From: an uncultured Verrucomicrobia subdivision 3 bacterium
Lineage (GTDB): Bacteria > Verrucomicrobiota > Verrucomicrobiia > Limisphaerales > UBA11358
Length of the DNA stretch: 34,920 nucleotides
Assembly: GCA_903889895.1 (NCBI GenBank)
Contig: CAISYZ010000225.1
Location: 1-34,920 of the forward strand
Direction: 5' to 3'
The notes under the pieces were generated by a model, which was not told the DNA's origin, made no database searches, and worked only from the letters and a program-made list of their open reading frames with translations. The position numbers and the translations under genes were made by a program. Shown here piece after piece: positions 1 through 21,183 of the stretch (its first letter is position 1; each line of letters opens with the position of its first letter).

Positions 1-142
1 GCCCGCCGACGCTTGGGGGACTCCCCCAACCTTCGGCGGACTTCCGCCGGCTCGCGGAAAACCCCCGCCATGGCTCGGAAAACCCCCGCCAGACGGCGGC
101 GGGAGGCGGGGGAAGTGATTGAAAGAGGATGGTTCCAGAAGT
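1..142. repeat. Structured non-coding left terminus: two hairpins and a 21-bp-period direct repeat
   Basis: No gene is seen here. Two adjacent perfect hairpins lie at 13-29 (7-bp arms TTGGGGG/CCCCCAA, loop ACT) and 34-49 (7-bp arms CGGCGGA/TCCGCCG, 2-nt loop). A 16-bp exact direct repeat, CGGAAAACCCCCGCCA, occurs at 55-70 and 76-91, and GGCGGGGG at 105-112 can pair with either copy. The composition is much more GC-rich than the AT-leaning repeats that follow. It could be the extreme phage end or adjoining host intergenic DNA; no TG...CA terminus or target-site duplication can be fixed from this window. Confidence 0.6.
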
Positions 143-612: not shown

Positions 613-1326
613 TTAGAACGGGCAAATCGTTTCCTCGGTCAATTCCGCGCCGAGTTCGGGATCAGCGGTGGCATTCCCAGCGACCAACTCATCGTCACCG
701 ACCGTGGCAGCCACGGCCCGGCCACAGCAGACCGCGCAGACGCATTCGAGGCCCGCGCGCAGACGCATATCGTGGATCGTGTCGCCGGCATCTTTGCGGA
801 GCGTGTTGAGACGCGCGGCCATCGTCCATTTCATCTGCTCCAACTGGCTTGGCCAGGTCTTCAGCTCGCCGGTTTTTTTATCGTGGCGATAGACCGGCTT
901 CGCGTCCAAATCCATCAGCGTGATGTCGCGCGCCGGACGGTCAATTTTCCACCAGCGATTTTTGTCCTCCATGATGCTCGTCATGTAGCCGCGAACATCC
1001 GCGACGTAGAGTTCCAAACACGGAACCAAATCGGTCACAATAAAATGGCGGATCGTGCGCGCCTTGTTGATCGTCAAATCTTCCGACTCAATGCCGGCCT
1101 TGACGCTGACACCTTGCAGGACGAGCAGCTCCATTTTCACCTTCGTGAAACCGTCCACGCGATCCACTTTTGTCAGCGAATCAAAACCGCACCGGAGCAA
1201 AAACTCTTTGCGCTTGGCGTCAATCTCCTTGGCCGACATTCCGTTCGCGCGCGTCCAGCCCATCGCCTTGCAGCTCTTCGGCCATTCGCGCCAGAACAAA
1301 TTCACCTGGTCAGTTGAAAGATTCAT
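613..1326 (-). CDS. Early phage protein, possibly GemA/gp16-like (237 aa)
   Basis: The N-terminal ~70 residues (VNLFWREWPKSCKAMGW..., then KEIDAKRKEFLLRCGFDSLTKVDRVDGFTKVKMEL) resemble, in pattern only, Mu GemA/gp16-family regulators, which have a Trp-rich start, an R-rich helix and a 'dsl..l' segment. A Cys cluster, CVCAVCC (C195, C197, C200, C201), near the C-terminus may bind a metal. The rest is unassigned. It abuts the downstream end of the 145-aa gene with no gap, so the two are probably translated together. GemA sits in the Mu early/middle region and affects host gene expression, which fits this position. The similarity is weak by eye; it may simply be a phage hypothetical. Confidence 0.5.
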   Translation of the reverse strand: MNLSTDQVNLFWREWPKSCKAMGWTRANGMSAKEIDAKRKEFLLRCGFDSLTKVDRVDGFTKVKMELLVLQGVSVKAGIESEDLTINKARTIRHFIVTDLVPCLELYVADVRGYMTSIMEDKNRWWKIDRPARDITLMDLDAKPVYRHDKKTGELKTWPSQLEQMKWTMAARLNTLRKDAGDTIHDMRLRAGLECVCAVCCGRAVAATVGDDELVAGNATADPELGAELTEETICPF

Positions 1327-1764
1327 TTAGTTTTTCGGGAGGTAAGTCCGCAGCTCCATGTGGCCACCGCGCCGCCGTAAAACCTTTTGCACCTCTTCGC
1401 CGCACGCGGTGCAGTAGATGAAGCCGTTGCGGTTCACGAGCGCGCCTGGCTCGTTGCACGGCACGAGCCGGCGGTCGTCGTCGCGCTTGAGGAACATGCA
1501 GCAGTCTTTGTCCGCAGCCGGCGTGGTCGGCCTGCTGGTCGCCGCCAGGGGAAACGGCATTTTGATTTCCGGCTCGTTGCCGTAGAGCATCCGCATTTTA
1601 TCCACGGCCACGCGGCGTCCATCCGTCCAGCGGAAGCTCGCGGCCACGCTCTTGAAACTAAAAAGAAATTCACCCTCCCACGTGGAGACGTTCAAATCGC
1701 TGCCGTCGAGTTTGTGCAGGAACGCGGCGCGCTCGGCATCGGTGATGGAAGGGTTCGGGATCAT
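1327..1764 (-). CDS. Hypothetical protein with possible zinc-binding cysteines (145 aa)
   Basis: Unrecognised product. Residues 25-70 look like a small beta/alpha domain (STWEGEFLFSFKSVAASFRWTDGRRVAVDKM). The C-terminal half has cysteines at 88/89, 103 and the pair C118-x2-C121 (YCTACGEE), consistent with a zinc ribbon of roughly 40 residues, followed by a basic tail. Its start codon overlaps the integrase stop by four bases (ATGA on the minus strand, 1764-1761), indicating translational coupling to the recombinase. It is therefore a candidate partner or simply an operon neighbour of the integron integrase. Function unknown. Confidence 0.6.
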   Translation of the reverse strand: MIPNPSITDAERAAFLHKLDGSDLNVSTWEGEFLFSFKSVAASFRWTDGRRVAVDKMRMLYGNEPEIKMPFPLAATSRPTTPAADKDCCMFLKRDDDRRLVPCNEPGALVNRNGFIYCTACGEEVQKVLRRRGGHMELRTYLPKN

Positions 1765-2768
1765 TTTAATAATAACGGCGATGCAAACCCAATTTCAATC
1801 ACCGCCCGCGCCGGCACGCAAACATGATCCGCCGGACTGGTGATTTCCTTGGGCGAAAGTTTATAGACATGCGTGTAAATTTCCGTCGTCTTCACATCCT
1901 TATGGCCGAGTAATTCCTGCACGGTGCGGATGTCATAACCGGCTTGGAGGAGATGCGTAGCGAAACTGTGGCGCAGCGTGTGGCAACCCGCCTTCTTGTG
2001 GATTCCGGCGGCGACATAGGCCGAGTGAATGGCCTTCTGCAATTTTGTTTCCGTGGCGTGCCAGCGCTCGCCGCGCCGCGCGACCGACGAGGCAAAGACA
2101 TATTGCCAGCCAAACTCCTTGCACGCCGAGGGAAACTTTTTCTCCAGACCGTTCGGTATTGGCGCGAAGATGCCATGCTCTAAATCCCGGCGATGCTCGG
2201 CCTGGCGCAGTTGCAGATGCGTCAGCAGCCGGTCACGCACCGACATCGGCAACAGCGTCCGCCGATGACCGCCCTTGCCATCCATCACGATGATTTGTCC
2301 GTTCGCGTAATCCACTTCCTTCACGCGCAGATGGAAGAGTTCCATCAGCCGCATTCCTGAACCGTAAAGAATTTCCGCCTGCAACTGCTCGTCACCGGCG
2401 AGATGCGCCAGCATCGCGCGCACTTCCAGCGGCGAGAGCACCACCGGGATGCCCTTGAATTTTTTCGCACGCGGAATTTCATCCAACTTGCCCAGCTCGA
2501 TTTTGAGAACGTGTTTGTAGAGAAAAATCAGGGCATTGAACGCCTGATCCTGCGCACTGGCCGAGCCATGGCGGAGCGAGGCGAGAAACGATTTAATCTC
2601 CGGCTCGCGCAGATCGCGCACGGATTTTTTGCCGTGGAAATTCCAGAACCGCATCAACCAGGTGTTGTAAGCCTTGAAGGTGTTTTTTTTGAAGTGGCGG
2701 AACTCACATTCAGCTTGTAACAATGCCGGCACGCTGCCAACCGGGTATGATATACGGAACTTTTCCAT
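1761..2768 (-). CDS. intI: Integron-type tyrosine recombinase (IntI family)
   Basis: A 335-aa tyrosine recombinase with an N-terminal core-binding domain (about 15-95) and a C-terminal catalytic domain. Catalytic residues are visible: R140 (YGSGMRLMEL), K165 (DGKGGHRR), H263/R266 (CHTLRHSFATH), H289 (LLGHKD) and nucleophile Y298 (TEIYTHVY). Between K165 and H263 there is an extra segment, about 200-248 (KKFPSACKEFGWQYVFASS...LQKAIHSA), matching the insertion that separates integron integrases from XerC/D and ordinary phage integrases and that contacts folded attC DNA. Length matches IntI proteins (320-340 aa). Upstream lie three attC-like sites and an attI-like junction. It sits in the phage early operon and could be expressed with it. 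Whether it also serves phage integration is open; the MuA/MuB genes suggest that is not its main role. Confidence 0.9.
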   Translation of the reverse strand: MEKFRISYPVGSVPALLQAECEFRHFKKNTFKAYNTWLMRFWNFHGKKSVRDLREPEIKSFLASLRHGSASAQDQAFNALIFLYKHVLKIELGKLDEIPRAKKFKGIPVVLSPLEVRAMLAHLAGDEQLQAEILYGSGMRLMELFHLRVKEVDYANGQIIVMDGKGGHRRTLLPMSVRDRLLTHLQLRQAEHRRDLEHGIFAPIPNGLEKKFPSACKEFGWQYVFASSVARRGERWHATETKLQKAIHSAYVAAGIHKKAGCHTLRHSFATHLLQAGYDIRTVQELLGHKDVKTTEIYTHVYKLSPKEITSPADHVCVPARAVIEIGFASPLLLK

Positions 2769-2785
2769 AGAATCAATGGTTGTGC
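2769..2785 (+). other. attI: attI-like integron insertion junction
   Basis: GTTGTGC at 2779-2785 lies 11 bases from the intI start codon. It is the exact 7-base complement of GCACAAC (3065-3071), the R'' box of the first attC. That is expected where a cassette was inserted between G2779 and T2780, because the cassette brings TTGTGC with it. The phage-side part of attI must be the short gap and/or the 5' end of intI, which is unusually compact compared with class 1 integrons. The box departs from the GTTRRRY consensus at one position (T for R). Confidence 0.65.
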
Positions 2786-3039
2786 AGCGCGGCGGCGCGC
2801 TCTTGGAGTTCCGCGATTTTCACTTCGATTTCTCCGAGGAACGATGTCAGCGGGCGCGGTTGGTCTATCTCGGCATCCGTCAGACCGGACATTGAGGCGA
2901 TGACATTCAGACCGCGTTCGAGTTCGCGCGCCCATTCCGCCAACTTCATCGCTGGTTCGAGGTCGGTCGCATCGAAGCAGAAGGTTTCTTTGTCGCTGAC
3001 GAGGGCGTCGGTTTTTGGTGTTGGTGTTGGTGTTTTCAT
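2773..3039 (-). CDS. Integron cassette 1 gene, unknown function (88 aa)
   Basis: Occupies cassette 1 (2780-3147) on the strand opposite to the inferred attC polarity. The product starts MKTPTPTPKTDALVSD, then has an acidic amphipathic helix region (ATDLEPAMKLAEWARELERGLNVIASM, 24-50) and a second helix (LGEIEVKIAELQERAAALHNH, 68-88), so it is probably a small coiled-coil protein of a kind common in phages. The last two codons (CAT TGA) come from phage DNA beyond the cassette boundary. An A-rich leader without Shine-Dalgarno (AATAAAAA) precedes the start, shared with cassette 2. Stop and intI start are 4 bases apart, so it is co-transcribed with the integrase. Function unknown. Confidence 0.65.
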   Translation of the reverse strand: MKTPTPTPKTDALVSDKETFCFDATDLEPAMKLAEWARELERGLNVIASMSGLTDAEIDQPRPLTSFLGEIEVKIAELQERAAALHNH

Positions 3040-3064
3040 TTTTTATTTGTCTCGTTGACGCTCT

Positions 3065-3153
3065 GCACAACATCTGCATGGAGCGAATCGCCGTTGGCGC
3101 GTTCAGCCGAGGCCACATCCCTAGTCGGCGATTCGCTCATGCAGGCGTTAGAC
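3065..3153 (+). repeat. attC: attC site 1 (ends cassette 1)
   Basis: R'' box GCACAAC (3065-3071) and R' box GTTAGAC (3147-3153) flank a 19-bp stem: left arm 3074-3093, right arm 3126-3144. The arms are perfectly complementary except for one extra G in the left arm (3080/3081), the extrahelical base expected of attC L''. The loop is 32 nt. R' reads GGCGTTAGAC, a very typical attC end. The 5' box GCACAAC is the exact complement of the GTTGTGC that begins cassette 1 at 2779. Total 89 bp, within the normal attC range (about 57-141). Confidence 0.8.
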
Positions 3154-3459
3154 GGCTCGGCCACGCTCACTGACATATTGACGCAAGACAGTTAGCGAGT
3201 CGTCCTCGCCTTCGTTTCCGGTCAGCAGGTGGACGCACTCATCGAATTTAGCCAGAGTTGCTCGCAAGCCGTCATTTTGCTTGAGCAGATTATTTGCACC
3301 CACGATTTCAGCTTTCAGGCGGCGCTCTGCGTCATCGCGTTGTCCGCGAGTCACGCGGAGCAGTCCGAGGACTTCATCCACATAGTCGTGATCCGCACTT
3401 GGTTCGCATTTGATTTCGTCACGGATTCTTTTTTGGCAGTTGCATTTTGGTTCGTTCAT
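3148..3459 (-). CDS. Integron cassette 2 gene, coiled-coil protein (103 aa)
   Basis: I start it at MNEPKCNCQKRIRDEIK (3459), not at an upstream Met (3525) that lies inside attC2. The product has two early cysteines (CNC, 6-8), then a long charged heptad-like helix (about 35-75: LLRVTRGQRDDAERRLKAEIVGANNLLKQND...) and ends GRAV. The TAA stop lies inside the attC1/cassette 2 box GTTAGAC (3147-3153), so the coding region fills the cassette. DNA here is visibly more AT-rich than gam. The leader (CCAATAAAAAAT before ATG) matches the style of cassette 1. Function unknown; small coiled-coil proteins are frequent cassette and phage cargo. Confidence 0.65.
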   Translation of the reverse strand: MNEPKCNCQKRIRDEIKCEPSADHDYVDEVLGLLRVTRGQRDDAERRLKAEIVGANNLLKQNDGLRATLAKFDECVHLLTGNEGEDDSLTVLRQYVSERGRAV

Positions 3460-3488
3460 ATTTTTTATTGGTTGTCGTTGTTCAAGTC

Positions 3489-3578
3489 GTCTAACAAATC
3501 CATGCAGGAAACGCCTATTGTGCATCCTGCTTGCAGTCGGGAGCGCCAGTGACGGCGTTCCTGATGTCTGCGTTGGGC
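3489..3578 (+). repeat. attC: attC site 2 (ends cassette 2)
   Basis: The best attC in the window. R'' GTCTAAC (3489-3495) and R' GTTGGGC (3572-3578) pair over all seven positions if two G-T wobbles are allowed. Both R boxes are separated from the stem by 5-nt spacers (3496-3500, 3567-3571). The arms are 3501-3515 and 3554-3566: 13 bp pair, with two extra bases (a G and an A) in the left arm only, as in the two extrahelical bases of classical attC L''. The loop is 38 nt. GTCTAAC exactly complements GTTAGAC (3147-3153), where cassette 2 begins. Confidence 0.85.
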
Positions 3579-3811
3579 GTGCTTTTACTTTTGGATGCTT
3601 TTATCACTTTTTCCATCTCCTCGGATATGATGTCGCGGCAGGCTTTCCATTCCTCAAGACATATCGGGCCGATGGGTCGCAGGACGGTTTCTCTTTTTAG
3701 ACGCAGCAGTGTTTTCGCAGCAGCACGCCGAACAAGCTCACTGGAGCGAACCTGCGGTTCGCTCTGCGTTCGCCACCACGATTTCTTTTTGATTGGGTTT
3801 TTTGCGCTCAT
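3515..3811 (-). CDS. Integron cassette 3 gene, small basic protein (98 aa)
   Basis: Covers most of cassette 3 (3573-3845). It starts inside attC3 and reads across the cassette boundary to a TAG inside attC2, so its last ~19 codons are formed by the neighbouring cassette's attC. The product has a very basic N-terminus (MSAKNPIKKKSWWRTQ), an Arg/Ala helix (SSELVRRAAAKTLLRLKRETVLRP, 23-46) and a mixed-charge helix (LEEWKACRDIISEEMEKVIKASKSK). No domain recognised. The coding of residues ~12-24 overlaps a 9-bp hairpin in attC3. Because start and stop both lie in attC sequence, the true gene limits are less certain than for the other cassettes. Confidence 0.5.
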   Translation of the reverse strand: MSAKNPIKKKSWWRTQSEPQVRSSELVRRAAAKTLLRLKRETVLRPIGPICLEEWKACRDIISEEMEKVIKASKSKSTPNADIRNAVTGAPDCKQDAQ

Positions 3812-3851
3812 AGGTCAGTTCCCCGCAGGCCGCTCAGTTCGGTCGTTAAAC
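3727..3851 (+). repeat. attC: attC site 3 (ends cassette 3)
   Basis: R'' GCCGAAC (3727-3733) matches the complement of the cassette 3 start (GTTGGGC, 3572-3578) at 6 of 7 bases; R' is GTTAAAC (3845-3851), a perfect GTTRRRY box. The arms are 3744-3757 and 3823-3835, about 12 bp pairing with one extra base in the left arm, again the L'' side. Spacers to the R boxes are 10 and 9 nt, longer than usual. The gam stop codon lies in the R' box. A competing short hairpin inside the site (9-bp arms 3744-3752/3756-3764, 3-nt loop) makes this the least certain of the three. Confidence 0.65.
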
Positions 3852-4415
3852 AGGAACCTCGGTTGCGTCCTTCAGCAGCGCGGCCACGGCTTTCTCGATC
3901 TCGCTGTCGGTCGGTTTGATCACGACCACGTCGCCGGTGTCGGCCACGGTGCAGCCGAGTTTCTTCAGCTCGTTCACCGGCAGCTCGGCGAGCATCTTCT
4001 TATCCGGCGCGTCCGTGGTGCGGATATAGGCGATGGCGTCGTCGCCAAACGTCTTGCGGATCAGGGCGCACACCTTGTCCGCGTCCGCGAATTCGATGCC
4101 GCCCTTGCCCTTCTGGAAGCCGACCTTCACGCCATGGAATATCTGCGTGCGCGGCTTGTCGAACAATGCCGGCGAGCCGGCGATGGCCGTGTGCAGGGTG
4201 AGCTTGGCCTTGGCCGTGCGCCCGACCGCCGCGCGCAGCGCGCCCAGGTATTTCCGTTTGATCTTCTCAAACTCGGCGTCCATGTCGCCGACGATGCCGG
4301 CAAGCTGGCCGTGTTCGTCGGCAAACGTCTTGGTGAGGAGTTCGATGTCGGTGAGCGTGGTGCCAGACCGAGGTTCGGTGGCGCGGCCACCGGCGTTTTC
4401 ATTGGTGCTAATCAT
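3846..4415 (-). CDS. gam: Mu Gam-like host-nuclease inhibitor protein
   Basis: 189 aa, close to the length of Mu Gam (174 aa). The family is a Ku-like dimer that coats double-strand DNA ends and blocks exonucleases such as RecBCD, protecting phage DNA after injection. Recognisable parts are the long N-terminal helix (ADEHGQLAGIVGDMDAEFEKIKRKYLGALRAAV, 33-65), the central beta strands with KPRTQIFHGVKVGFQKGKGGIEF (87-109), and a helix with Asp/Ala residues (ADADKVCALIRKTFGDDAIAYI). It lies downstream of MuB, as in Mu. Its TAA stop is formed by the attC3 R' box GTTAAAC, so the integron cassettes appear to sit immediately after gam. An SD-less leader (CCATCAACCAAAGAAAA) precedes the ATG. Confidence 0.85.
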   Translation of the reverse strand: MISTNENAGGRATEPRSGTTLTDIELLTKTFADEHGQLAGIVGDMDAEFEKIKRKYLGALRAAVGRTAKAKLTLHTAIAGSPALFDKPRTQIFHGVKVGFQKGKGGIEFADADKVCALIRKTFGDDAIAYIRTTDAPDKKMLAELPVNELKKLGCTVADTGDVVVIKPTDSEIEKAVAALLKDATEVPV

Positions 4416-4721: not shown

Positions 4722-4767
4722 AAATTAAGTCGCGTTTAATTGTTGGTTAATGGTGGCCCTGACGCAG

Positions 4768-5742
4768 TCAGTTGAGCTGCCAGTCGCGCAGCAACTTCGT
4801 GTGCGCCGACCGGATGGCCTGCACGCTGGTGATCGGCTTCTTCGCGCCAGCCCGAATTTCCTCGGCCAGCTTGAACTGCTTATAGACGGCACGGTAGCAA
4901 CCCTCGTGGCCGACGATCTGCTCGCCCAGGTCGCAGACCGATTCCAGTTCGCCGTTCAATTCCGGCATCAGACTCGTCGCCAGGTGCGTGATCAACGTGC
5001 GCGGATTGGACGGCTGGATTTCGTTCCAGAGCTGGATGCGGCTGAAGCGTTGCGTGTCGCTCATCAGCAGATCATGGAGCGCCGGCGTGCCGATGAGCGC
5101 GATGGGAATCAAAGTCTCCTCCCAGAAATCCACGAGCCATTGCAGCGCGGCCTTGGTGAGCTTGTGCGCGTCGTCCACGATCAACAGCCGGTCGCTGCCA
5201 GCCAGTTTGGCGATCAAGAACTGCGCGCGCTTAGTCTGACCGTCCCAGCCCGCCTGGCCGACCGCCTTGAAGAGCGCGCCCTCGACGGAATTCTTGTCGT
5301 TGTTCCAGGAGCGGACGTGGAAGTAAATCGCCAGCGGATTTTCGCGCAGATAAAATTCGCCCGCGCGCGACTTGCCGCCGCCGCTCACGATCACCATGCA
5401 GCCGATCTCGTTCAGCTTCCGCAGCGTTTCCAAACCATTGCAGACGGCCCGCGTCTCGTCCGTGCTGATCGTCTCCACGCCGGAGGCCCGGCGGCGCGCT
5501 TCGTTCCGAAAGAAGTCTTCCAGCTTGCGCTCAAACATGGCGAGATCGCCGCTGAATTCCTTTCCGTTGCAATACTGGCTGACGTAGCTCGAATTGACGC
5601 CGAGCTTCTTGGCCAGTTTGTTGTTGCTGTAGTTTTCCTTCGTCGGCCCGGCTCGGAGTTCGAGCAGGCGCTGGCGGAGGGTTTCGTTGAAGTGCGGGGC
5701 CGCACTGGCCACCGGAGTTTTATCTAATGATGTCGCGCTCAT
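4768..5742 (-). CDS. MuB-like AAA+ ATPase, transposition target-selection protein
   Basis: 324 aa from the start chosen here. In Mu, MuB binds DNA as an ATP-dependent filament, delivers target DNA to the MuA transpososome and gives target immunity. Residues below count from the upstream Met at 5790. An N-terminal helix-turn-helix (56-80, NNKLAKKLGVNSSYVSQYCNGKEF) resembles the MuB DNA-binding domain. The P-loop reads VSGGGKSRAG (135-144), lacking the first Gly of GxxxxGK[ST]. Walker B is LLIVDDAHKL (202-211), and a sensor-like IGTPAL follows. I prefer ATG 5742 because an A/C-rich leader like that of other genes precedes it and there is no overlap; ATG 5790 would overlap the previous gene by 14 bases. 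Located after MuA, as in Mu (A then B). Confidence 0.85.
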   Translation of the reverse strand: MSATSLDKTPVASAAPHFNETLRQRLLELRAGPTKENYSNNKLAKKLGVNSSYVSQYCNGKEFSGDLAMFERKLEDFFRNEARRRASGVETISTDETRAVCNGLETLRKLNEIGCMVIVSGGGKSRAGEFYLRENPLAIYFHVRSWNNDKNSVEGALFKAVGQAGWDGQTKRAQFLIAKLAGSDRLLIVDDAHKLTKAALQWLVDFWEETLIPIALIGTPALHDLLMSDTQRFSRIQLWNEIQPSNPRTLITHLATSLMPELNGELESVCDLGEQIVGHEGCYRAVYKQFKLAEEIRAGAKKPITSVQAIRSAHTKLLRDWQLN

Positions 5743-5776
5743 TTGTTTTTGTGTTTTGTTGTTGTGGTTATCACCC

Positions 5777-6184
5777 TCAAGCGAGGGCAAAATCTTGTTG
5801 TTTAGGCACTGGCGGCAGGCCGTGCCGGCGCAGAAATTCAGTGGCGAGCGCCGCGCTGGTGAGTTGATACACGTTCAGCCAGGCGCTCTTGCGGTCTGGC
5901 CGCGTGGACTTGGTGCGCAGCGCATACCATTGCCCCGCGCTGTCGAGATGCCCCACCGGCTGGATCACCTTCGCGTTCTTCAGCAGTTCCACAACGCTGC
6001 CGGCAATCCCGCTGCCCGGCTCGCCGGTGGCACTCCGCAAGGAGTCCGGCACAATGTCCGTGGTGAAATGCCCGCCCTTCGCCAGCGCCTTTTCCACGAG
6101 CGCCACCGCGAACCGTTGCAGCTCGTGATTTTTCCAAATGATCTCCTGGGCGATGGCTTCCTGAAATTTGGCGTCGGGATTCAT
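5777..6184 (-). CDS. Small protein between transposase and MuB (135 aa), possible winged helix
   Basis: Lies between the transposase stop (11 bases upstream) and muB. Residues 1-35 are helical (FQEAIAQEIIWKNHELQRFAVALVEKAL). The middle, HFTTDIVPDSLR...SGIAGSVVELLKNAKVIQPVGHLDSAGQWYALR, has the helix-helix-strand-turn-strand pattern of a winged-helix DNA-binding domain, and the tail is Ala/Leu-rich. Family not recognised. An insertion between A and B is not present in Mu itself, so this may be a lineage-specific accessory factor for transposition or replication. The fold is my reading of the pattern and is not established. Confidence 0.6.
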   Translation of the reverse strand: MNPDAKFQEAIAQEIIWKNHELQRFAVALVEKALAKGGHFTTDIVPDSLRSATGEPGSGIAGSVVELLKNAKVIQPVGHLDSAGQWYALRTKSTRPDRKSAWLNVYQLTSAALATEFLRRHGLPPVPKQQDFALA

Positions 6185-6195
6185 AAACGTGGTGG

Positions 6196-8376
6196 TTAGA
6201 GTTCCAGCGCCTCGCGCGCGATGCGTTCGTCGTCGTCGCGGCGCTGCTGTTGTTTCTTGGTGACTTGTTTCTCCGTCATCACCGCGCGCACCGTGTGCGC
6301 GACCGGCGATATGACCGTCTCGCGGCCAATCAACTTCGGCGCGGTCACGGTGACAAAACCGGCGTTGTATTCGCGCATCTGGACGAGCGACGCATTCTCG
6401 TCACTCGCCAGTTCGGTCGCGCGGGCCTTCGCCACATTGAGCGCCGAGGTGGAGTAGCGAATGGCAGCGGCGAGCGCGTCGCTGTCGCCCTGCTTGACGA
6501 GGCCGCGCCGCAACCACGTTCCGAGGATGCCGCCCCGGCCATCGGTCAAAGTCAGGAAGCGCGGATCATCGGGATTGAAATAGCAGAGGCACTTCGTTTC
6601 CGGCGGCAGGGCGAACTCCGCGCTCGGCGGCGCGTAGCGGAGCACCTTGCCTTCCACCATGATTTGAATCTCGCCGTTATCCTTGACCGGGCATGACCGC
6701 TGCGTGTGCGCGTAAAACGCCGTGAGGATTTCCGGCGAAACTTTGGTGAACGGATCGCAGCCGGCCAGCAGCCAGGCAGCGCGTTCAATCGGGCTTTCCA
6801 TCCGTTGCCGCGTTTTGATGCCGGCCATATCCGCCGGTGCCGTGTTCGCTGGTTGCCAGTTCGCGCCATCAAACCATTCAGCGATGGTATTAAAACCTTC
6901 GAGGTCGTGTTCCGTGCGGCGGTTCTGGATGCCGAAAATTTCAAACAGCCCGCTGCGCGCCTGGGGAATGGTGTAAAACGGATAACGTAAATCCGCGCGA
7001 TCCTCCGGGCGATGGCTCGTCCAAATTTCAATCGCTTCTTTTTCCCGCTGGCGATACTCCGCCGGCAGCTTGGAGTAATTCAAACCGATCTGGCCGGGGA
7101 AATGCGAGGTGAGCAGATGTTGCAGCCGGTTCAAACTTTCCAACATCGCCTTCGCTTTGGAATTGCCCACGGCCTTCTCGCCGTAACCGACCGGCGACTT
7201 CCCGTTGATCATCGAAGAATAGGAAACATGAATCCGCTCCGGCCCGATCATTTCCGTGAGCGCATCCGCCGTGCCTTGAGCCAGCGTGGCGGTGCCGCGC
7301 TCGATCTTCCACGTCATCTGATACGGCGGCAGGCCGTAAGTTTCGAGCAGCCAGCCAGTGAGCTGCTTCATGTCCTGCAACTTCAAATGTTCCTGCGAAC
7401 CATCATCGCGCGCGCGCGCCGGCCGCATCCCGAAGCCGAGCAACATCGAGGTCGCCACATCGCGCGCCACCAGCAGCCAGAGATCGTTCACCTGCCCGCT
7501 GTCCGTGTCCATCACGCGGAAATCGCAACGCACGTCGTCGAACTGCACCAACTCCATGAAGCGGAGTTCTGTCCGCGTGCCGTGGACTTGCGGCGTGAAA
7601 TTTTTCGCGGCGTGAATGCCTTCGTGTAAGAGCGCCTTGACCGGCGCGGAAAACTTGGCGCGTCGCTTCATCTGCTGCCGGATGTTCGATGAAGACCAGC
7701 CGTCCGGCAAAATCGCGCGTGTGCGATTGTCCCAATTCACCTCGTAGCCGGGAATGATTTGCGATTGACCGCGCTGATCGCGACCGGTCGCCCATTGCCG
7801 GTGGATGGAAAGAATCGCCTGCTCCATCGCATCGCCGCGCTTGAACTCACCGCAGCGCGCTGCGAGATAATCCAGGAAGCTATCCGGGAGGCCGCGCTGG
7901 CTCGCCTGCCACGCCGCGCCGGCCTTCGCGCGATTCACCAGCACCAGCCAATCCTGCTGTGCCAGCCACAGGTCATATTTGCCCCGGAACGTTTTCAGCG
8001 GATTGAACTCGCGATAGATGGTGAGCGCCCGCGCGCAGGCGGGTTGGATTTTAATGGCCTCTTTTCCGGTCGTTAAATTGCGGACGAACAGCACGGCGGC
8101 TTGCAGCCGTTTCACCTGGGCGCGCAGATCGAACGGCAACCGGCTGAAGAGCGCCGGCTCCATTTCCCACTTCGGCAGCGGCGCGCGATGCGCGAGGTAG
8201 GTCTTGACGCACGCGACGGGCAAAAGCGCGCTGCCATTTGTGCCACATGGAACAGCGAGCGAAGCAACAACCGGCGAGAGCAACTGGCTTCCGCCAGATT
8301 CGTGCAGGGTGACTGGTAGCGGTTGTCCCTGACTTGAGCTGTTCGCCGGTTGAAAATTGTCGAGGTTGGAGATCAC
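6196..8376 (-). CDS. MuA-like DDE transposase
   Basis: 726 aa, close to MuA (663 aa). It would cut the phage ends and join them to target DNA during replicative transposition, the phage's replication mode. The order is an N-terminal DNA-binding part (about 1-260), a catalytic RNase H-like rve core, then a mu-type beta-barrel region (about 480-640) and a basic tail (KKQQQRRDDDERIAREALEL) like the region of MuA that contacts MuB and ClpX. Active-site candidates are D280 or D281 (LVQFDDVRCDF) and E413 (MLESLNRL). The expected second Asp is E359 (TWKIERGTATL). The start is GTG in a GTGA overlap with the preceding gene, with a clear Shine-Dalgarno (GGAGG, 6 nt upstream), one of few in this operon. 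Confidence 0.87.
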   Translation of the reverse strand: MISNLDNFQPANSSSQGQPLPVTLHESGGSQLLSPVVASLAVPCGTNGSALLPVACVKTYLAHRAPLPKWEMEPALFSRLPFDLRAQVKRLQAAVLFVRNLTTGKEAIKIQPACARALTIYREFNPLKTFRGKYDLWLAQQDWLVLVNRAKAGAAWQASQRGLPDSFLDYLAARCGEFKRGDAMEQAILSIHRQWATGRDQRGQSQIIPGYEVNWDNRTRAILPDGWSSSNIRQQMKRRAKFSAPVKALLHEGIHAAKNFTPQVHGTRTELRFMELVQFDDVRCDFRVMDTDSGQVNDLWLLVARDVATSMLLGFGMRPARARDDGSQEHLKLQDMKQLTGWLLETYGLPPYQMTWKIERGTATLAQGTADALTEMIGPERIHVSYSSMINGKSPVGYGEKAVGNSKAKAMLESLNRLQHLLTSHFPGQIGLNYSKLPAEYRQREKEAIEIWTSHRPEDRADLRYPFYTIPQARSGLFEIFGIQNRRTEHDLEGFNTIAEWFDGANWQPANTAPADMAGIKTRQRMESPIERAAWLLAGCDPFTKVSPEILTAFYAHTQRSCPVKDNGEIQIMVEGKVLRYAPPSAEFALPPETKCLCYFNPDDPRFLTLTDGRGGILGTWLRRGLVKQGDSDALAAAIRYSTSALNVAKARATELASDENASLVQMREYNAGFVTVTAPKLIGRETVISPVAHTVRAVMTEKQVTKKQQQRRDDDERIAREALEL

Positions 8377-14725: not shown

Positions 14726-15406
14726 ATGAAAACCTCGCCAACAAAATCAGCGGCGTGGGAGGAAGACAGCTTCTGGCGCGAAGTGGTCGCCGTGCTGACC
14801 GGCGGCAAGAAACTGCGCGGCGAACATTATTTGCAAAATTTGTCCGGCGAGGAATTGGAGCAGTTGCGCTCGGCGCTGTCTGCGCCTGGCACGCTGTCGG
14901 ATCAGCAGAAACTTTGCCCGGCGCGGCGCGGGGGCAAGACGGACGGCGAGCTGCCGCCGGCCTCGCTGCTCTCGCCGATCTCCCAGGCGGTGCGCGAGGT
15001 GACGACGCTGCGCGCGCTGCAACGCCAGGACATCATCAGTGCGGCGACGAAGGATCGTTGCGGCCAGTTGGGGATAGATCCGCAACTGACGAACGCGGTC
15101 GTGCGCGTGGTGGCCGAGGAAGCGTTGCGCCAACAGGCGGAGAATCAGGTCGGCAATTTTGCGATCTCGGCGGCGAATGTTTTGCTGCTGGCGGAAGGCT
15201 CGCGCACGAAAGCGAAACAGGAGGAAGTAAAAATCCAACTGCGCAAATCCAAGCTGACGCAGGACGACCGGAAAATTGTGCTGATGGAAAAGAAGGCGGC
15301 CGCCTACGACCGGGCGCAGGCCGCGCTGGCGGCGGCGAAAACACAAAAAGGTGGAATCACACCTGAAACCCTGACTCAAATCGAACGCGAATTGAAGCTG
15401 CTGTGA
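14726..15406 (+). CDS. Terminase small subunit, Mu gp27/DUF3486-like
   Basis: 226 aa, all-helical with long charged helices: AALRALQRQDIISAATKDRCGQLGIDPQLTNAVVRVVAEEALRQQ, then RKSKLTQDDRKIVLMEKKAAAYDRAQAALAAAK and the end GGITPETLTQIERELKLL. The C-terminal 60 residues follow the pattern of DUF3486 small terminases (a KIxxxEKKxAxYDxAxxxL helix ending in a Leu-rich tail). The protein would recognise phage DNA for packaging; in Mu this is followed by the large subunit, as here. A GTGA overlap couples it to the large subunit gene. Confidence 0.68.
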   Translation: MKTSPTKSAAWEEDSFWREVVAVLTGGKKLRGEHYLQNLSGEELEQLRSALSAPGTLSDQQKLCPARRGGKTDGELPPASLLSPISQAVREVTTLRALQRQDIISAATKDRCGQLGIDPQLTNAVVRVVAEEALRQQAENQVGNFAISAANVLLLAEGSRTKAKQEEVKIQLRKSKLTQDDRKIVLMEKKAAAYDRAQAALAAAKTQKGGITPETLTQIERELKLL

Positions 15407-16725
15407 AAAAATCCGAGCAAAAATTCTTCCTGCCGTATCAAGCCGACTGGATCAACGACCAGTCGCCGCTGAAAATTTGCGAAAAAGGTAGGCAGATCGG
15501 GTTGAGCTACGCCGAAGCCTACCGTTGCGTGCGCGCGGTCTCCACTTCCAAGACCAAACTCGACTGCTGGGTTGTGTCGCGTGACGATATTCAGGCGCGC
15601 CAGTTTCTTTTTGCGTGCAAACGGTGGGCGGCGGCGTTGAATTTGGCCGCCGAGGACATTTCCGGCGAGGAGATTTTGCAAAATGAACGCAGTGTCACCA
15701 TGCACATATTGCGTTTCGCGAGTGGTTACTCCATTTACGCCCTATCTTCTAACCCCGACGCTATTGTCGGTAAATCTGGCCATGTGATTCTTGACGAATT
15801 CGCGCTCCATAAAGATCAGCGCCAGCTTTATGCGCTCGCCAAGCCGGTGACGCAATGGGGTGGAACGCTAACAATCATTTCAACTCATCGCGGCACCGGC
15901 ACGATTTTTAATAATTTGATCGAAGACGTTAAAAATCGCGGGAACCCGATGGGGTGGAAGCTGCACACAATCCCAATTCAACTGGCCGTCGAGCAAGGGT
16001 TGGTTGAAAAAATCAACTTGGCGTCTGGTAAAAATGAAACGCGCGAGGAGTGGCTCGCGCGAATGCGGCGTGAGTGCATCGACGAGGAGCAATGGTTGCA
16101 GGAATACTGCTGCATCCCGGCGGATGAATCTTCGGCCTTCATCAGCTATGAGATGATCACCGGCTGCGAGGACGATTCCGCACCGAAGGATTTTGCTTAT
16201 CTCGAAACCTGCACCGGCCAGATTTACCTGGGCTTCGACGTGGCCCGGACAAACGACCTGTCGGTGATTGATGTGGAGGAAAAGGTCGGCGACGTGTTTT
16301 GGGAACGCTGCCGGCTGGAAATGCGCGGCAAGAGTTTCGCCGAGCAGGAATTTGAGCTGGGCCGCTTCATGCGGCTTCCGCAAATCCGCCGCTGCTGCAT
16401 TGATGCGACCGGGCTGGGAATGCAGCTCGCCGAAAATGCCGTCCGTAAATACGGCTCGCGCGTCGAGGCTGTCCGGTTTAGCGCGCCGGTGAAAGAGGAG
16501 CTGGCCTTCCCGCTCCGCGCCGCGCACGAAGACCGCACGCTTCGATACCGCAGGGATGAAAAACTTCGCGCCGACTTGCGCGGAATTAAAAAAGAAACCA
16601 CGGCCAGCGGCAATATCCGTTTCGCCGGGGAAGCCGCCGACTCCCATTGCGACCGTTTCTGGGCCAAGGCGCTGGCGCTCCATGCTGGCAAGAAACTCGG
16701 CGGCATCATCGCCGTCGTGGGATAA
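15403..16725 (+). CDS. Terminase large subunit (packaging ATPase/nuclease), Mu gp28-like
   Basis: 440 aa from a GTG start in a GTGA overlap. ATPase motifs: a Walker A-like CEKGRQIGLSY (26-36, the Arg-for-Lys variant usual in terminases), Walker B VILDEF (128-133, D131/E132) and a coupling motif STHRG (160-164). Nuclease motifs (RNase H-like): D279 in GFDVAR, D334 in CIDATG, and D413/D417 in DSHCDRFWAKAL. The protein pumps DNA into the prohead and cuts it; Mu-type phages package headful from integrated copies, taking host DNA with both ends. All expected motifs are present, so it looks active. Confidence 0.9.
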   Translation: MKKSEQKFFLPYQADWINDQSPLKICEKGRQIGLSYAEAYRCVRAVSTSKTKLDCWVVSRDDIQARQFLFACKRWAAALNLAAEDISGEEILQNERSVTMHILRFASGYSIYALSSNPDAIVGKSGHVILDEFALHKDQRQLYALAKPVTQWGGTLTIISTHRGTGTIFNNLIEDVKNRGNPMGWKLHTIPIQLAVEQGLVEKINLASGKNETREEWLARMRRECIDEEQWLQEYCCIPADESSAFISYEMITGCEDDSAPKDFAYLETCTGQIYLGFDVARTNDLSVIDVEEKVGDVFWERCRLEMRGKSFAEQEFELGRFMRLPQIRRCCIDATGLGMQLAENAVRKYGSRVEAVRFSAPVKEELAFPLRAAHEDRTLRYRRDEKLRADLRGIKKETTASGNIRFAGEAADSHCDRFWAKALALHAGKKLGGIIAVVG

Positions 16726-16730
16726 ATGAT

Positions 16731-16877
16731 ATGACTACCCTCCAAACCTACTTTTCCGGCCTTCAGGATGCCCGCAGGGCGGTTTCCGCCTCTCTCCGTA
16801 GCCATCGGGGCTTCCGGGCGCGGATTTGCCAATCTAGCCCCGTTAATGCCCCGTTAAAAAATGGGGGTGGCCAATGA
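16731..16877 (+). CDS. Small ORF between terminase and portal (48 aa)
   Basis: MTTLQTYFSGLQDARRAVSASLRSHRGFRARICQSSPVNAPLKNGGGQ. It starts 5 bases after the terminase stop and ends in an ATGA overlap with the portal start, the spacing of a real coupled gene. Basic, with no membrane segment. Its last third is coded by the tandem CCCCGTTAA repeat described separately, so the peptide may just bridge a regulatory site. Unknown function. Confidence 0.4.
   Translation: MTTLQTYFSGLQDARRAVSASLRSHRGFRARICQSSPVNAPLKNGGGQ
16838..16857 (-). repeat. Internal copy of the TTTAACGG end motif near the genome centre
   Basis: Two CCCCGTTAA units lie in tandem with an 11-bp period (16838-16846 and 16849-16857). 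Read on the minus strand this is TTTAACGGGGCATTAACGGG, which matches the left-end unit TTTAACGGCCCATTAGCGCC (292-311) at about 15 of 20 positions. The copy lies at 48% of the window length. A hairpin (CCCC...GGGG) can also form with the following GGGGG. Role unknown. Confidence 0.5.
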
Positions 16878-19189
16878 AGTTTGCCCTCACCATCGGCGGC
16901 AAGGAGTTTTCCTTCGGCGCGAAGTCGCTTTCCCCCTCCAGCCAGGCATTCCTGAACGGAACGGATATTGACGATGCCGGGCGCGGCGCGGTGATGTATA
17001 CGCCCTACGCGCAGTCGGCGTGGGTTTATTGCGCGGTATCTATATTGGCGCAGTCGGTCGCGCAAATCCCGTTCCGCATTTCGCGCGTGAGTGGCGGCAA
17101 GGCCAAGAAGGTTCGGTCGCTGCGCGGCTCATCCGATCCGGCCCATCGTAACCTCTGCCGGCGTGCGCTCGGCGAGGACATTCTCGATTCCGGCGACGTG
17201 GTGGATTTGTTCGCGCGCCCGCATCCGAGCATGGATGCCCAGATGTTTTTTGAAATGCTGGTGACGTGGCTCTGCCTGCGCGGGGAATTCTTCGTGCTGC
17301 CGCTGGACCTCGCCGATGAGCCGGTGGATTTGTCCGACCGGCAGCCGCGCATCAAACGGCTGCTGACGCTCAACCCGGAAATGTTCTGGCACGTCGTGCA
17401 GGGCTTTGACCTCGTGGCGTGGCGTTACACCGGCAGCCCGTTGATGTCGCCGCTGCCTTCGATTTACCTCAACCCGTCCGAGGTCATCCAGTCCAAGCTG
17501 CCGAATCCATATTTATATTGGCGCGGCCTTTCGCCGCTGACGGTGGCGCTCACGCCCGCGCAGACGGATTTTGCCGGGGAACAATTTCAAAAAGGTTTGT
17601 GGCTGAACAATGCCGACACCGGCGTGATCGTCACCACGGATCAGATTTTGCAGGACGACCAGCGCCGCGCGATTGAATCCGCCCTGCGCGAGCGCAAGCG
17701 CAAGGCCGGCACGCCGGACCGTCCGTTGTTTCTGTTCGGCGGCGCGAAGATTGAGAAGCCGACACTCTCCATGATGGACATGCAATTTCTGGAGACGCGG
17801 AAATTTCTGCGTCAGGAAATCTTCGCCATCCTGAAGGTGCCGGAAACTTTGGCCGGCTTCACCGCCGATCTGAACGACGGCGGCGCGGGTGGCTCGCTCG
17901 ATGCCCAGAAGGCGAGCTTCATCGAATCCACCATCAGCAGCCTTTGCGGGCGCATTGAAGTTGCGTTTGCCGACGTGGTGGCGAGCTTCGATCCCAATTT
18001 CGTCGGCTGGTTCGACATTGATTCGCTCCCCATCATGCAGGCTACTCGCCGGGCGCGCTGGGACACCGGCACCAAAATGTTTGCGATGGGTGTGCCCGTC
18101 GCCGACATCAACACCAATCTCGACCTCGGTCTGCCGGAACAGCCGTGGTATAAAAACGGCTACCTGCCGTTCAATTTGCAGAACGCGGGCGAACCGCCAG
18201 AGCCGCTACCGAGCGAAGGTGGCCCGTCCGGCACAGACCCGGAGCCTGACGCCGATCCCGATGACGCGGCCAAGTCCAATCCGTTTACGCGGCTGGGGAA
18301 ACTGCTCGCGAATATCAAGGCCAACGAGCCGGCGGTGCGGGAACCTTCCGTGGAAGTGGTCAACCTTTGGAAGAAGCACGTCACGGCGCGCAAGGCGCAG
18401 GTGAACCTGTTCAAAAGCAAGACCAGCAAGGTGCTGATGAAATTCCGCGCCACCGCCTTGGCGAAGCTTGACGAGGTTCATCTGCAAAAGTCTTTGCAGA
18501 CGGCCACCACGAAAGGACTCGTGGATATTATATTCTCCCACCTGGCGTTTGGCCAATCGCTTACGGATGAGCTGGCCGCGCCGCAACGGTCGCTGTTGCA
18601 ATCCGCCGGCAAGGAATTGCTATCCGAAGTGGGTTATGCGGACCCGTGGGAATATCCGCCCGCTGGCGTGAAGGAATTTCTCGCGAAGCGCAAGATCAGC
18701 ATCCTCGGCACCGGCGAGACGGTGCGCAACCAGATCAACACAACTTTGACGGAAGGCATTGAAGCCGGCGAAACGCATCTGGAACTGGCGTCGCGCGTCA
18801 AGGCCGTTTTCAACACGATGACGGATAGCGAGGCGAAGCGCGTGGCGATGACGGAAGTGAACATCGCTTACGAGACTGCGCGCGACCAGGCTTCGCGCGA
18901 TGCCGGCATTGAATACAAGGCGTGGCTTTCCAGTCACGGCCCGCACGTCCGCGAAGCCCACGCCGCCGCCGAGGAAGATTACATCGACAACCCGATCCTG
19001 ATTGACGAGGCGTTCGAGGTGGGCGGCGAGCAGCTCATGTTTCCCGGCGACGATTCACTCGGCGCTTCCCTGGACAATATCATCAATTGCCAGTGCATCC
19101 GGCTGGCCGCGCAGAAAACCGGCGAGGACGAAAAATCCATCACCTTCAAAATCTTTGGTGTCGGCGAAACCAAATTCCTGAAAAAATGA
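16874..19189 (+). CDS. HK97-type portal protein fused to a MuF-type head morphogenesis domain
   Basis: 771 aa. Residues about 35-430 show the HK97-family portal pattern (YAQSAWVYCAVSILAQSVAQIPFRI, later LSPLTVALTPAQTDFAGEQFQKGLWLNN, then FLETRKFLRQEIFAILKVPETLAG). After an acidic Pro-rich linker (PPEPLPSEGGPSGTDPEPDADPDD, 437-462) comes a helical region and a minor head/MuF-like domain (about 600-755: RVAMTEVNIAYETARDQASRDAGIEYKAWLSSHGPHVREAHAAAEEDYI...INCQCIR). The two are usually separate genes (Mu gp29/gp30; SPP1 gp6/gp7). The portal is the dodecameric DNA gate; MuF proteins are injected or help assembly. The stop overlaps the protease ATG by ATGA. Confidence 0.85.
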   Translation: MKFALTIGGKEFSFGAKSLSPSSQAFLNGTDIDDAGRGAVMYTPYAQSAWVYCAVSILAQSVAQIPFRISRVSGGKAKKVRSLRGSSDPAHRNLCRRALGEDILDSGDVVDLFARPHPSMDAQMFFEMLVTWLCLRGEFFVLPLDLADEPVDLSDRQPRIKRLLTLNPEMFWHVVQGFDLVAWRYTGSPLMSPLPSIYLNPSEVIQSKLPNPYLYWRGLSPLTVALTPAQTDFAGEQFQKGLWLNNADTGVIVTTDQILQDDQRRAIESALRERKRKAGTPDRPLFLFGGAKIEKPTLSMMDMQFLETRKFLRQEIFAILKVPETLAGFTADLNDGGAGGSLDAQKASFIESTISSLCGRIEVAFADVVASFDPNFVGWFDIDSLPIMQATRRARWDTGTKMFAMGVPVADINTNLDLGLPEQPWYKNGYLPFNLQNAGEPPEPLPSEGGPSGTDPEPDADPDDAAKSNPFTRLGKLLANIKANEPAVREPSVEVVNLWKKHVTARKAQVNLFKSKTSKVLMKFRATALAKLDEVHLQKSLQTATTKGLVDIIFSHLAFGQSLTDELAAPQRSLLQSAGKELLSEVGYADPWEYPPAGVKEFLAKRKISILGTGETVRNQINTTLTEGIEAGETHLELASRVKAVFNTMTDSEAKRVAMTEVNIAYETARDQASRDAGIEYKAWLSSHGPHVREAHAAAEEDYIDNPILIDEAFEVGGEQLMFPGDDSLGASLDNIINCQCIRLAAQKTGEDEKSITFKIFGVGETKFLKK

Positions 19190-19914: not shown

Positions 19915-21183
19915 ATGACCACTGAAGCACAAGATAAAGAATTCCAGGAAATTATTGCCAAGGCTGGCAAGTTCGTGGATGAAAACGCTGGCGTTCTTTC
20001 GGAAATCAAGAGCGTCGAAGGCGGCTTCGCCGCCATCAAGGCATTGCCGGAATTGTTCAAGACCGAGCAGAAGCGCGCCGACGAGCTGCACACGGAAATC
20101 AAGAAGCTCTCCAAGCGTCTGGCCGAGGGCACGGATGGCAACCGCGTGAAATGGATCAACGGCATCGGCCATGTTACGGACGACTGCGCGAAATTCATCG
20201 GCAGCATGGCCGTCATCCGCGCCGCGCAGGCGAACAAGCTCAAGGGTGCTTCCGCCGAAGACCTGGTCACGCGCGCCGCCGGGATGCTGGGCATCGAATC
20301 CAAGGCCGCGATTGCCGCGACCGACATTCCGCTGCCGGTGCAATACGCCGCGCAGATCGTCGAACTGGTGTATCAATACGGACAGGCCCGCAAATTCTGC
20401 ACCGTCTATCCGCTCGGCACGGCCACGGTCAAACTGCCCCGTTTGAAAACCGGTGAGCCGGCGTTCGGCTTCATCGCGGTCAGCGGCGCGGTCGGTGAAA
20501 AGGTTCCGCAGATGGAATTCATCACCTTCACGCCGGGCAAATGTGGCGGCATCGTGCGCATTCCGTCGGAAATTGACGCGGACAGCATCATCGCGGTCGG
20601 CCAGTTCGTGGCCCGCTATATTGCGCGCGAAATGGCGAAGCTGGAAGACCTCTGCCTGTTCGCGGGCGATGGCACCAGCACCTACAACAGCATCACGGGC
20701 GTCGGGCTGGCCTCGACGAACGACAGCAGCGTGCTGCAGCTCGCGTCCACCAAGACGCATCCCTCGGACATCACGCTGGCGAACTTGCGCAATCTGCGCG
20801 CCAACGTCACCGGCGCGGTGTTGAAGACGGCGCAATACTATCTCCATCCTTCGATGGAGCAGTTGCTCGTCAGTTTCAATACGTCCGCCACGGTCACGCC
20901 GTATATCCGTTCCGCGGACGGCACGGCCACGCTGGACGGGTTCCCGATCAACTGGGTCAACGTCATGCCGGTCTATACCAGCAGCGCCACCGTGAGCGCC
21001 TACCAGGTGTTCTTCGGTGATTTGAGCTGGTGGTATTTCGGCGAGCGCATGGCCATGAGCGTCGAGACCAGCCGCGACGTGTATTTCGCCACCGACGAAA
21101 TCGGCATCCGCGCGCTCGAACGCATTGACATCCACCAGATGGGCCAGTTGTCCAGCGCCGCGCTGCAACTCGCCGCCAGTTAA
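19915..21183 (+). CDS. Major capsid protein, HK97 fold
   Basis: 422 aa. The N-terminal ~75 residues are coiled coil (TEAQDKEFQEIIAKAGKFVDENAG...EQKRADELHTEIKKLSKRLAEG), a delta domain expected to be removed by the prohead protease. The remainder follows the Phage_capsid pattern, with the segment LPRLKTGEPAFGFIAVSGAVGEKVPQMEFITFTPGKCGGIVRIPSEIDADS (E-loop/P-domain) and the C-terminal AMSVETSRDVYFATDEIGIRALERIDIHQMG. Forms hexamers and pentamers of the icosahedral head. It has an SD-less A-rich leader (AAATCGTAAATAAAATT). High expression expected. Confidence 0.9.
   Translation: MTTEAQDKEFQEIIAKAGKFVDENAGVLSEIKSVEGGFAAIKALPELFKTEQKRADELHTEIKKLSKRLAEGTDGNRVKWINGIGHVTDDCAKFIGSMAVIRAAQANKLKGASAEDLVTRAAGMLGIESKAAIAATDIPLPVQYAAQIVELVYQYGQARKFCTVYPLGTATVKLPRLKTGEPAFGFIAVSGAVGEKVPQMEFITFTPGKCGGIVRIPSEIDADSIIAVGQFVARYIAREMAKLEDLCLFAGDGTSTYNSITGVGLASTNDSSVLQLASTKTHPSDITLANLRNLRANVTGAVLKTAQYYLHPSMEQLLVSFNTSATVTPYIRSADGTATLDGFPINWVNVMPVYTSSATVSAYQVFFGDLSWWYFGERMAMSVETSRDVYFATDEIGIRALERIDIHQMGQLSSAALQLAAS

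Follow-up and report, generated by a model that had tools for sequence, protein, structure and literature searches.

An integron with reversed cassette genes in the early operon of a Mu-type prophage, and arrays of the same layout in predicted viral contigs

The textbook integron is a bacterial device in which a promoter close to the integrase gene intI drives transcription outward through the cassettes. Does a transposable phage have an integron of its own, and in which direction are its cassette genes read? This question is raised by a contig of 34,920 nucleotides from an uncultured Verrucomicrobia subdivision 3 bacterium (GenBank assembly GCA_903889895.1, contig CAISYZ010000225.1), which was analysed in full and is called the window here. 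The window is a Mu-type prophage, and an earlier reading of its letters alone (the sequence-only reading) had claimed a complete integron in the early operon of this phage. This claim is supported by a covariance model that recognizes all three attC sites and by related phages that lack the integron in the stretches compared. We estimate at roughly 0.85 the probability that the early operon of this Mu-type prophage carries an integron with normal attC polarity and three reversed genes likely co-transcribed with intI, the integrase being predicted to swap small, probably counter-defence, early genes at attI. The sequence itself shows the integrase and its three attC sites with their polarity, the direction of the open reading frames (ORFs), a break at attI, integron-free relatives and the same layout elsewhere.

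The attC sites were searched with a covariance model (R1) that was built from 37 attC sites of other loci, none of them from the window, and was run with filters off. Its three best matches in the window are exactly the three sites upstream of intI, all on the minus strand, which is the strand matching the bottom-strand model: attC1 (3065..3153; 42.8 bits, E 7.4e-9), attC2 (3489..3578; 58.5 bits, E 9.3e-13) and attC3 (3727..3851; 36.0 bits, E 3.4e-7). The last is 125 nt long and forms the distal end of the array, adjoining the phage gene gam. All three sites are thus recognized by a structure model, which is R1 and not IntegronFinder's own. The next match is attC1 on the other strand (E 0.083), and nothing besides the three sites was found in the window below E 0.08. 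A scanner for boxes and paired arms found three sites with a score of at least 6 in the 34.9 kb, the same three, and one site, with score 7, in ten shuffled versions.

The boxes at the cassette limits point to the same sites. GTTGTGC at 2779 pairs with GCACAAC at 3065 (7/7), GTTAGAC at 3147 with GTCTAAC at 3489 (7/7), and GTTGGGC at 3572 with GCCGAAC at 3727 (6/7). The G|TT boxes set the limits of cassette 1 at 2780..3147, of cassette 2 at 3148..3572 and of cassette 3 at 3573..3845. The sequence-only reading had argued that such a relation hardly arises by chance three times in a row. Among 2152 GTT..AAC pairs of the window that lie 150-450 nt apart, 0.8% match in 7/7 and 6.6% in at least 6/7 positions; a single pair is therefore weak evidence, and the argument holds for three chained pairs. 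Since scanner and R1 single out the same three sites and their boxes pair as stated, the observation of three attC-like sites bounding three ORFs is correct, with the site coordinates corrected to those given above.

The box GTTGTGC at 2779..2785 (plus strand) is the junction between attI and cassette 1. It lies beside intI, complements the R'' box of attC1 in 7/7 positions and places the predicted crossover, G|TT, at 2779/2780. A different Mu-type phage (L017), among the predicted viral contigs of the IMG/VR database, encodes an IntI protein 94% identical to that of the window. At the DNA level the two are 87% identical over window positions 1761-2781 only; this block begins with the intI stop codon and breaks off at the GTT of the attI junction. 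R1 found no attC match in L017, which therefore looks like an empty platform.

The intI gene (1761..2768, minus strand) encodes an integron integrase of 335 amino acids, which scores 327.8 bits with TIGR02249 (cut-off 265) and matches PF00589 and PF13495. Residues 21-313 align with the solved structure of IntI4 (2a3v, E 4.6e-62), including the stretch between the catalytic blocks, and R140, H263, R266, H289 and Y298 are invariant across its lineage. The assignment as an IntI-family recombinase with its catalytic residues and the integron-specific insertion was therefore right, and the IntI tree agrees with it. LexA control of intI is common in integrons, though not universal. Near this intI we found no LexA box CTGT-N8-ACAG with up to one mismatch (five in the window, 6.6 expected); the box of the host may differ from this consensus. 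A 350-amino-acid tyrosine recombinase below the IntI cut-off is encoded elsewhere in the genome (G000:C251:33592-34023), and a short stretch there is 72% identical in DNA to the phage intI.

The integrase gene is tightly built into its surroundings. The stop codon of ORF1 lies 4 nt ahead of the intI start, and the ATG of p145 (1327..1764, minus strand), a conserved early gene directly after intI, overlaps the intI stop by 4 nt; we conclude from these joins that intI is part of the operon. Homologues of p145 occur in L005, L023, L025 and L122. The last, an IMG/VR contig, repeats the order of gam, attC array, intI and p145 found in the window, with an IntI that is only 27% identical. Both the tight joins and this repeated order speak against a misassembled chimera of phage and integron DNA, which we regard as highly improbable, even though the source genome comprises 260 contigs and is 75.7% complete.

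The three ORFs all lie on the minus strand. ORF1 (2773..3039, 88 amino acids) is reversed in cassette 1 and has three homologues that are 51-70% identical in this frame. ORF2 (3148..3459, 103 amino acids) has nine homologues with 65-85% identity over the alignment, and its stop codon TAA falls within the boundary box of the cassette. ORF3 (3515..3811, 98 amino acids), assigned by a strand classifier, starts inside attC3 and ends inside attC2. In the usual integron the cassette genes lead away from intI and are read from the Pc promoter; here all three ORFs read toward intI, opposite to the canonical direction, despite the normal attC polarity relative to intI. Because ORF1 and ORF2 are conserved in the reversed frame and the joins from ORF1 through intI to p145 are tight, we place the cassettes in line with the early genes and reversed relative to canonical ones. 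The sequence-only reading had recognized integrase, sites and cassettes and had missed this reversal, which we think is a more novel feature than the integron itself.

The polarity of an attC site is marked by extra unpaired bases in one arm. In the window these bases lie where they should if the array begins at an attI beside the intI start, and R1 concurs. The polarity could have been misassigned if the sites belong to the 3' ends of the ORFs and a canonical array is joined to intI by its far end. As in canonical cassettes, the ORFs here do end in or cross a box. Unpaired bases and covariance model, however, give one and the same polarity, which is also that of Vibrio and other control arrays; the junction next to intI is without a stem, as befits attI, whereas the gam-proximal site has one; and in the pair of viral contigs L078 and L080 (below) the one cassette that distinguishes them is inserted at the intI-proximal box. 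A misassigned polarity is therefore very unlikely.

The predicted structures of the ORF1 and ORF2 proteins are helical, with moderate confidence. The ORF1 protein was reported from 21 contigs and an ORF2 cluster of five sequences from 15; no relatives of ORF2 were confirmed among viral contigs. Three relatives of ORF1 (P0019, P0020 and P0021, compared with 2773-3039) look mosaic: two share the N-terminal half and one the C-terminal half. Those sharing the N-terminal half carry other C-terminal halves, and relatives of ORF2 also vary at the C-terminus.

Five related phages share early genes with the window, among them p237 (613..1326, minus strand), a conserved early gene of this phage group located downstream of intI (41-75% identity in L005 and L023-L027). 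One of them (L005/L018) is a second Mu-type prophage of the same genome and, according to identical match figures, the same phage as contig L023. In the compared stretches of L005/L018, L024, L025, L026 and L027 no intI was found, nor any attC match at E 1. Neither outcome that the sequence-only reading had named as refuting it was thus observed, be it rejection of all three sites by the model or a block conserved with no cassette variation and no empty form. Only L005/L023 and L025 match the immediate surroundings of the integron, since L024 and L026 have no p145 match and L027 has neither p145 nor gam. The sister prophage is split over G000:C246 (L005) and G000:C255 (L018), whose ends overlap, and lies beside an ftsH-like gene. 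At the place of the window integron, L005/L018/L023 contain a pentapeptide-repeat-like gene and others.

To our question whether such integrons occur in other phages, an alignment of the window IntI lineage gave 72 IMG/VR loci that encode an IntI relative; a few are fragments. Mu-type tnpA or tnpB was present in eight of these (L017, L063, L068, L075, L107, L111, L122 and L129), with the label of L063 and L111 based on tnpB alone and the IntI match of L129 covering residues 23-114 only. Six of the eight (L063, L068, L075, L107, L111 and L122) have attC sites upstream of intI. The statement that no transposable phage with its own integron is known is thus wrong for unannotated data. Seven label changes are required to place the eight Mu-type rows in the IntI tree, which makes separate gains of integrons by Mu-type phages likely. 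This is a quick tree in which 31 of 103 inner branches are weak, rows not labelled Mu-type may carry transposition genes beyond the compared DNA, and L100 has the same sequence as L063. The tree also contains a 24-row clade of viral contigs only (L103, L104, L105, L107, L108, L110-L126 and others), which is well separated from the chromosomal IntIs in the sample. An integron-type integrase annotated merely as xerD is present in virus Rctr41k (L022, KX853513) from a methane-oxidising enrichment (4680-5678, with downstream attC-like sites in the region 6641-8813). This virus was left out of all counts, having no attC-like sites upstream of intI.

The direction of cassette genes was then compared across arrays. 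A plain codon-usage score is too weak for short ORFs and was replaced by a strand classifier trained on long ORFs of these loci (cross-validated area under the curve 0.958, accuracy 0.90). We used it on the cassettes delimited by attC sites that the model had found, with ORF coverage as a check. Seven contigs were dropped because their IntI duplicates that of another contig. In the remaining 39 distinct viral arrays, the window among them, the count is 137 cassettes toward intI against 5 away, with 7 undecided and 10 lacking a call. By array, 37 have a majority toward intI and two are ties (L073, L076). The six further Mu-type arrays read toward intI in 18 of 18 cases, as do 3 of 3 cassettes in the window. 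The 17 control arrays gave the reverse picture, with 4 cassettes toward and 40 away (4 undecided, 14 without call), 14 arrays with a majority away from intI and three ties (L135, L138, L143). Twelve controls are chromosomal, two come from published phages and three are IMG/VR contigs derived from isolates, with arrays resembling those of Vibrio. As a measure free of training, we compared coverage by ATG-started ORFs in the two directions for arrays of two or more sites; the direction toward intI had the greater coverage in 31 of 34 viral and 2 of 13 control arrays. The polarity of attC relative to intI is uniform throughout (159/159 sites in viral arrays, 62/62 in control arrays).

These counts are based on 185 of 200 R1 matches in viral loci. 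Left out were nine matches on the other strand (two in L095, one in L113, three each in L091 and L092), none of them part of an array immediately upstream of intI, four matches that lie downstream of intI (two in L104, one each in L114 and L126) and two of L064. Added were two sites from a separate R1 search (L075, L111), the three of the window and 49 from an R1 search of 25 further loci; a third site in L063 (E 0.37) was not used. Used sites came from 48 of 71 viral loci and from 15 of 25 in the further search, and sites were chained into an array only if the next lay within 2600 nt. Small groups of attC sites of opposite polarity lie several kilobases from intI (L095 2309-2955, L091/L092 903-1674) and are perhaps second arrays. 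In Tetrasphaera phage TJE1 the arm scanner found one site, missed by R1, into which an annotated ORF runs in the canonical sense. For Polaribacter phage P12002L neither scanner nor R1 found a site. Two sites of this phage have been tested in published work, so both methods miss some sites.

Did the phage simply capture a piece of a host chromosomal integron in recent times and carry it as passive cargo, as in published Vibrio anguillarum prophages? Chromosomal IntIs are widespread in the order: 16 of 59 genomes, among them that of the window, have one at E 1e-40. The published cases are described as having arisen by such capture (PMC9892861). The chromosomal IntIs of relatives, however, are at most 48% identical to that of the window, and none was found at E 1e-85 in 383 other genomes of the class. 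In the tree the window IntI belongs to a 19-row clade with L017 and 17 proteins of a metagenomic protein set, which were retrieved at E 1e-90. No member of the ORF1 family was found in 244 other genomes, nor of the ORF2 family in 285, and the cassette genes are reversed, unlike those of most chromosomal arrays tested. On identity, tree and cassette gene direction we rejected recent capture, which has a low probability.

Signs of recombination come from other members of this class of arrays, none from the phage of the window. In 18 arrays, L078 and L080 both counted, we predicted the attI junction box from the R'' box of the intI-proximal cassette. In 13 of them a box with 7/7 matches lies upstream of the IntI match at a distance of no more than 200 nt; by our own estimate (200/4^7), the chance of an exact box in 200 nt is about 1%. 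Each of the five misses (L104, L108, L114, L118, L119) has an attC site closer to intI than the one used. A single difference, a 523-bp cassette at attI, separates contigs L078 and L080, whose sequences agree fully in the 580 and 1095 bases that flank it. In L070 an identical 305-bp unit is present twice, with AAC at both edges. Shared intI blocks begin at the AAC of the attI box in L115/L116 and in L103/L110, and one base earlier in L083/L082.

What do the cassettes encode? We scanned 131 of 132 reversed cassette ORFs with Pfam (the L078 copy was omitted); they had been picked among ORFs reading toward intI, and the three of the window were excluded. The matches listed include five C5 DNA methylases, three restriction-alleviation Lar proteins, three PAPS reductases, two N6/N4 methylases and one each of Mom, the Acb2/Tad1 hairpin family and Aca2. 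The matches listed for PHROGs and PADLOC (25/88 and 25/109) are mostly methyltransferases. For 45 control cassette ORFs no methylase, Lar, Mom, Acb2/Tad1 or Aca2 family was among the matches listed. Most cassettes, including the three of the window, are without a known domain.

From these arrays we consider it fairly probable that phages own an integron class, gained repeatedly, which consists of an IntI module in the early operon with every cassette gene reversed and a phage-only cassette pool rich in counter-defence genes. The uncoupling of gene direction from attC polarity, seen in dozens of predicted viral arrays, suggests that the direction of cassette genes follows the transcription of the platform and not the chemistry of recombination. 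In the phage of the window, IntI would be active and would use the bottom strand of attC for recombination. The phage early promoter probably drives the cassettes together with intI, and ORF1-3 would presumably benefit the phage. If folding of attC fixes the polarity of insertion, then in a platform read toward intI only cassettes with reversed genes would be expressed in step with the operon; such an expression filter would select a phage cassette pool apart from the chromosomal pool. Phage transposition and packaging would move the cassettes between hosts. The layout is common to dozens of predicted viral sequences and is thus a likely route by which viruses trade small early genes, some with a predicted role against bacterial defences. 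If true, the phage class would be the mirror image of chromosomal integrons that store anti-phage defences, and Mu-type phages would add site-specific gene exchange to random transposition. If the cassettes do serve counter-defence, one recombination system would be at work on both sides of the arms race, in phages and in bacteria, with two separate pools.

Several observations weigh against an active, exchangeable phage integron of this kind. In the window, attC3 is atypical and degenerate (125 nt, 6/7 box), and we found no variant of this phage that carries other cassettes. Family-profile scans gave no match for ORF1-3 (ORF3 without a homologue search), and the predicted structure of ORF2 has no match in a viral structure library at E 0.001. 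The margins of the strand classifier are modest in the window, where the plain codon-usage score is indecisive (25 vs 20). The classifier is about 90% accurate and misread cassettes of an annotated Vibrio phage array (two of three in one run, one of 12 in another). Three isolate-derived contigs (L087, L093, L127) were set among the controls after their direction away from intI had been seen; as viral rows they add one cassette toward and 11 away, which changes the counts to 138 vs 16 for viral arrays and 3 vs 29 for controls. The IMG/VR contigs are predicted viruses, and a head, packaging, connector, tail or Mu-transposition gene was seen in 13 of 39 arrays; of the other 26, one or two ORFs were tested in 19 (L078 standing for L080) and none in seven. 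In L078 the one ORF tested is not a capsid or packaging gene, and likewise no such gene was seen in L080. The cargo contrast is marginal (Fisher p 0.07, 0.04 and 0.04 for 11, 12 and 13 of 131 vs 0 of 45).

Some of these points would also fit a real integron that is dead, whose IntI or sites no longer recombine and which is inherited as a block of ordinary phage genes. The lack of an array variant and the degenerate attC3 are expected in that case, and the presence of the ORF1 protein in 21 contigs and of the ORF2 cluster in 15 may mean a stable array. Against this, IntI is intact with its catalytic residues, all three attC sites keep paired arms and unpaired bases, and the intI/attI block common to L017 breaks at the crossover point. 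We regard a dead integron as unlikely.

How does this arrangement relate to known systems? Class 1 integrons are found on Tn402-like transposons, elements with a DDE transposase and a B-like ATPase, as here. Compared with these carriers, the window is a tailed phage and not a transposon, and its cassette genes are reversed. Sedentary chromosomal integrons of the Vibrio type (e.g., L093, L127 and L134) have the same IntI family, attC fold and polarity, and attI by the intI start; their cassette genes lead away from intI, whereas those of the window lead toward it.

Phage integrons are already published: from temperate phages, Qi et al. (2023; PMC9892861) report three integrons that are complete, one In0 and 17 clusters of attC sites lacking integrases (CALINs). 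The cases are Vibrio phages Va_90-11-286_p16 and Va_PF430-3_p42, a P1 isolate and Shewanella M16-3. As in the window, IntI and attC lie inside a phage genome, and cassettes there too encode methyltransferases (PMC9892861). The Vibrio and P1 cases are described there as pieces of chromosomal or class 1 integrons, unlike the window, and in the accessible text the words transposable and Verrucomicrobi do not occur (PMC9892861). The array of Shewanella M16-3 reads away from intI in 4 of 4 cassettes in our strand scan, unlike the window; so does most of the Va p16 array (of 12 intervals, seven away, one toward and four without call). The record MZ568829 is filed in Peduoviridae and not as Mu-type.

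In Treponema reverse integrons (PMC3607928), intI and the cassette genes point the same way, as in the window. There intI is turned and transcribed toward attI, whereas in the window attI lies at the intI start as usual and the cassette genes are turned. Cryoconite phages have flexible gene modules (Bellas et al., 2020, PMC7468147) that are likewise exchangeable and rich in methyltransferases, and five matches are labelled integron gene cassette; unlike the window, no attC or IntI mechanism is described for them in the sections available. A reversed, operon-embedded integron class, or any integron in Mu-type phages, was not among the matches listed in the open literature, which is weak evidence of absence because open papers only were covered.

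The assignment of the prophage is based on early genes and on packaging and head genes. The early operon contains tnpA (6196..8376; phrog_310, E 3e-16), coding for the transposase, and tnpB (4768..5790; phrog_296, E 1e-37), coding for the transposition ATPase; iterated hidden Markov models join these to Mu A and B. The gam gene (3846..4415; phrog_491, E 5e-14) encodes a Mu Gam-like end-protection protein that stays below the cut-off of Pfam Mu_Gam. Genes for the terminase large subunit (15403..16725; phrog_5909, E 1e-39), a portal protein with a head-morphogenesis domain (16874..19189; phrog_2662, E 2e-54) and the major head protein (19915..21183; phrog_10, E 5e-34) are also present. The strands are split: tnpA, tnpB and gam are on the minus strand, terminase, portal and head protein on the plus strand. 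Rfam gave no matches in the window at gathering scores.

The window is the whole contig C225 of its genome. The phage terminus 5'-TGATTGAAAGAGG lies at 116..128 on the plus strand, and bases 1-115 are taken as host DNA. An identical terminus is found in the sister prophage L005 and in phage contig L023, and in the three cases compared it abuts different flanking DNA. The contig ends at about the expected place of the second phage end (34830-34920), the right terminus not being reached with certainty. The sequence GGTTCCAGAAG lies near both ends as an inverted pair, possibly as a binding site of the transposase.

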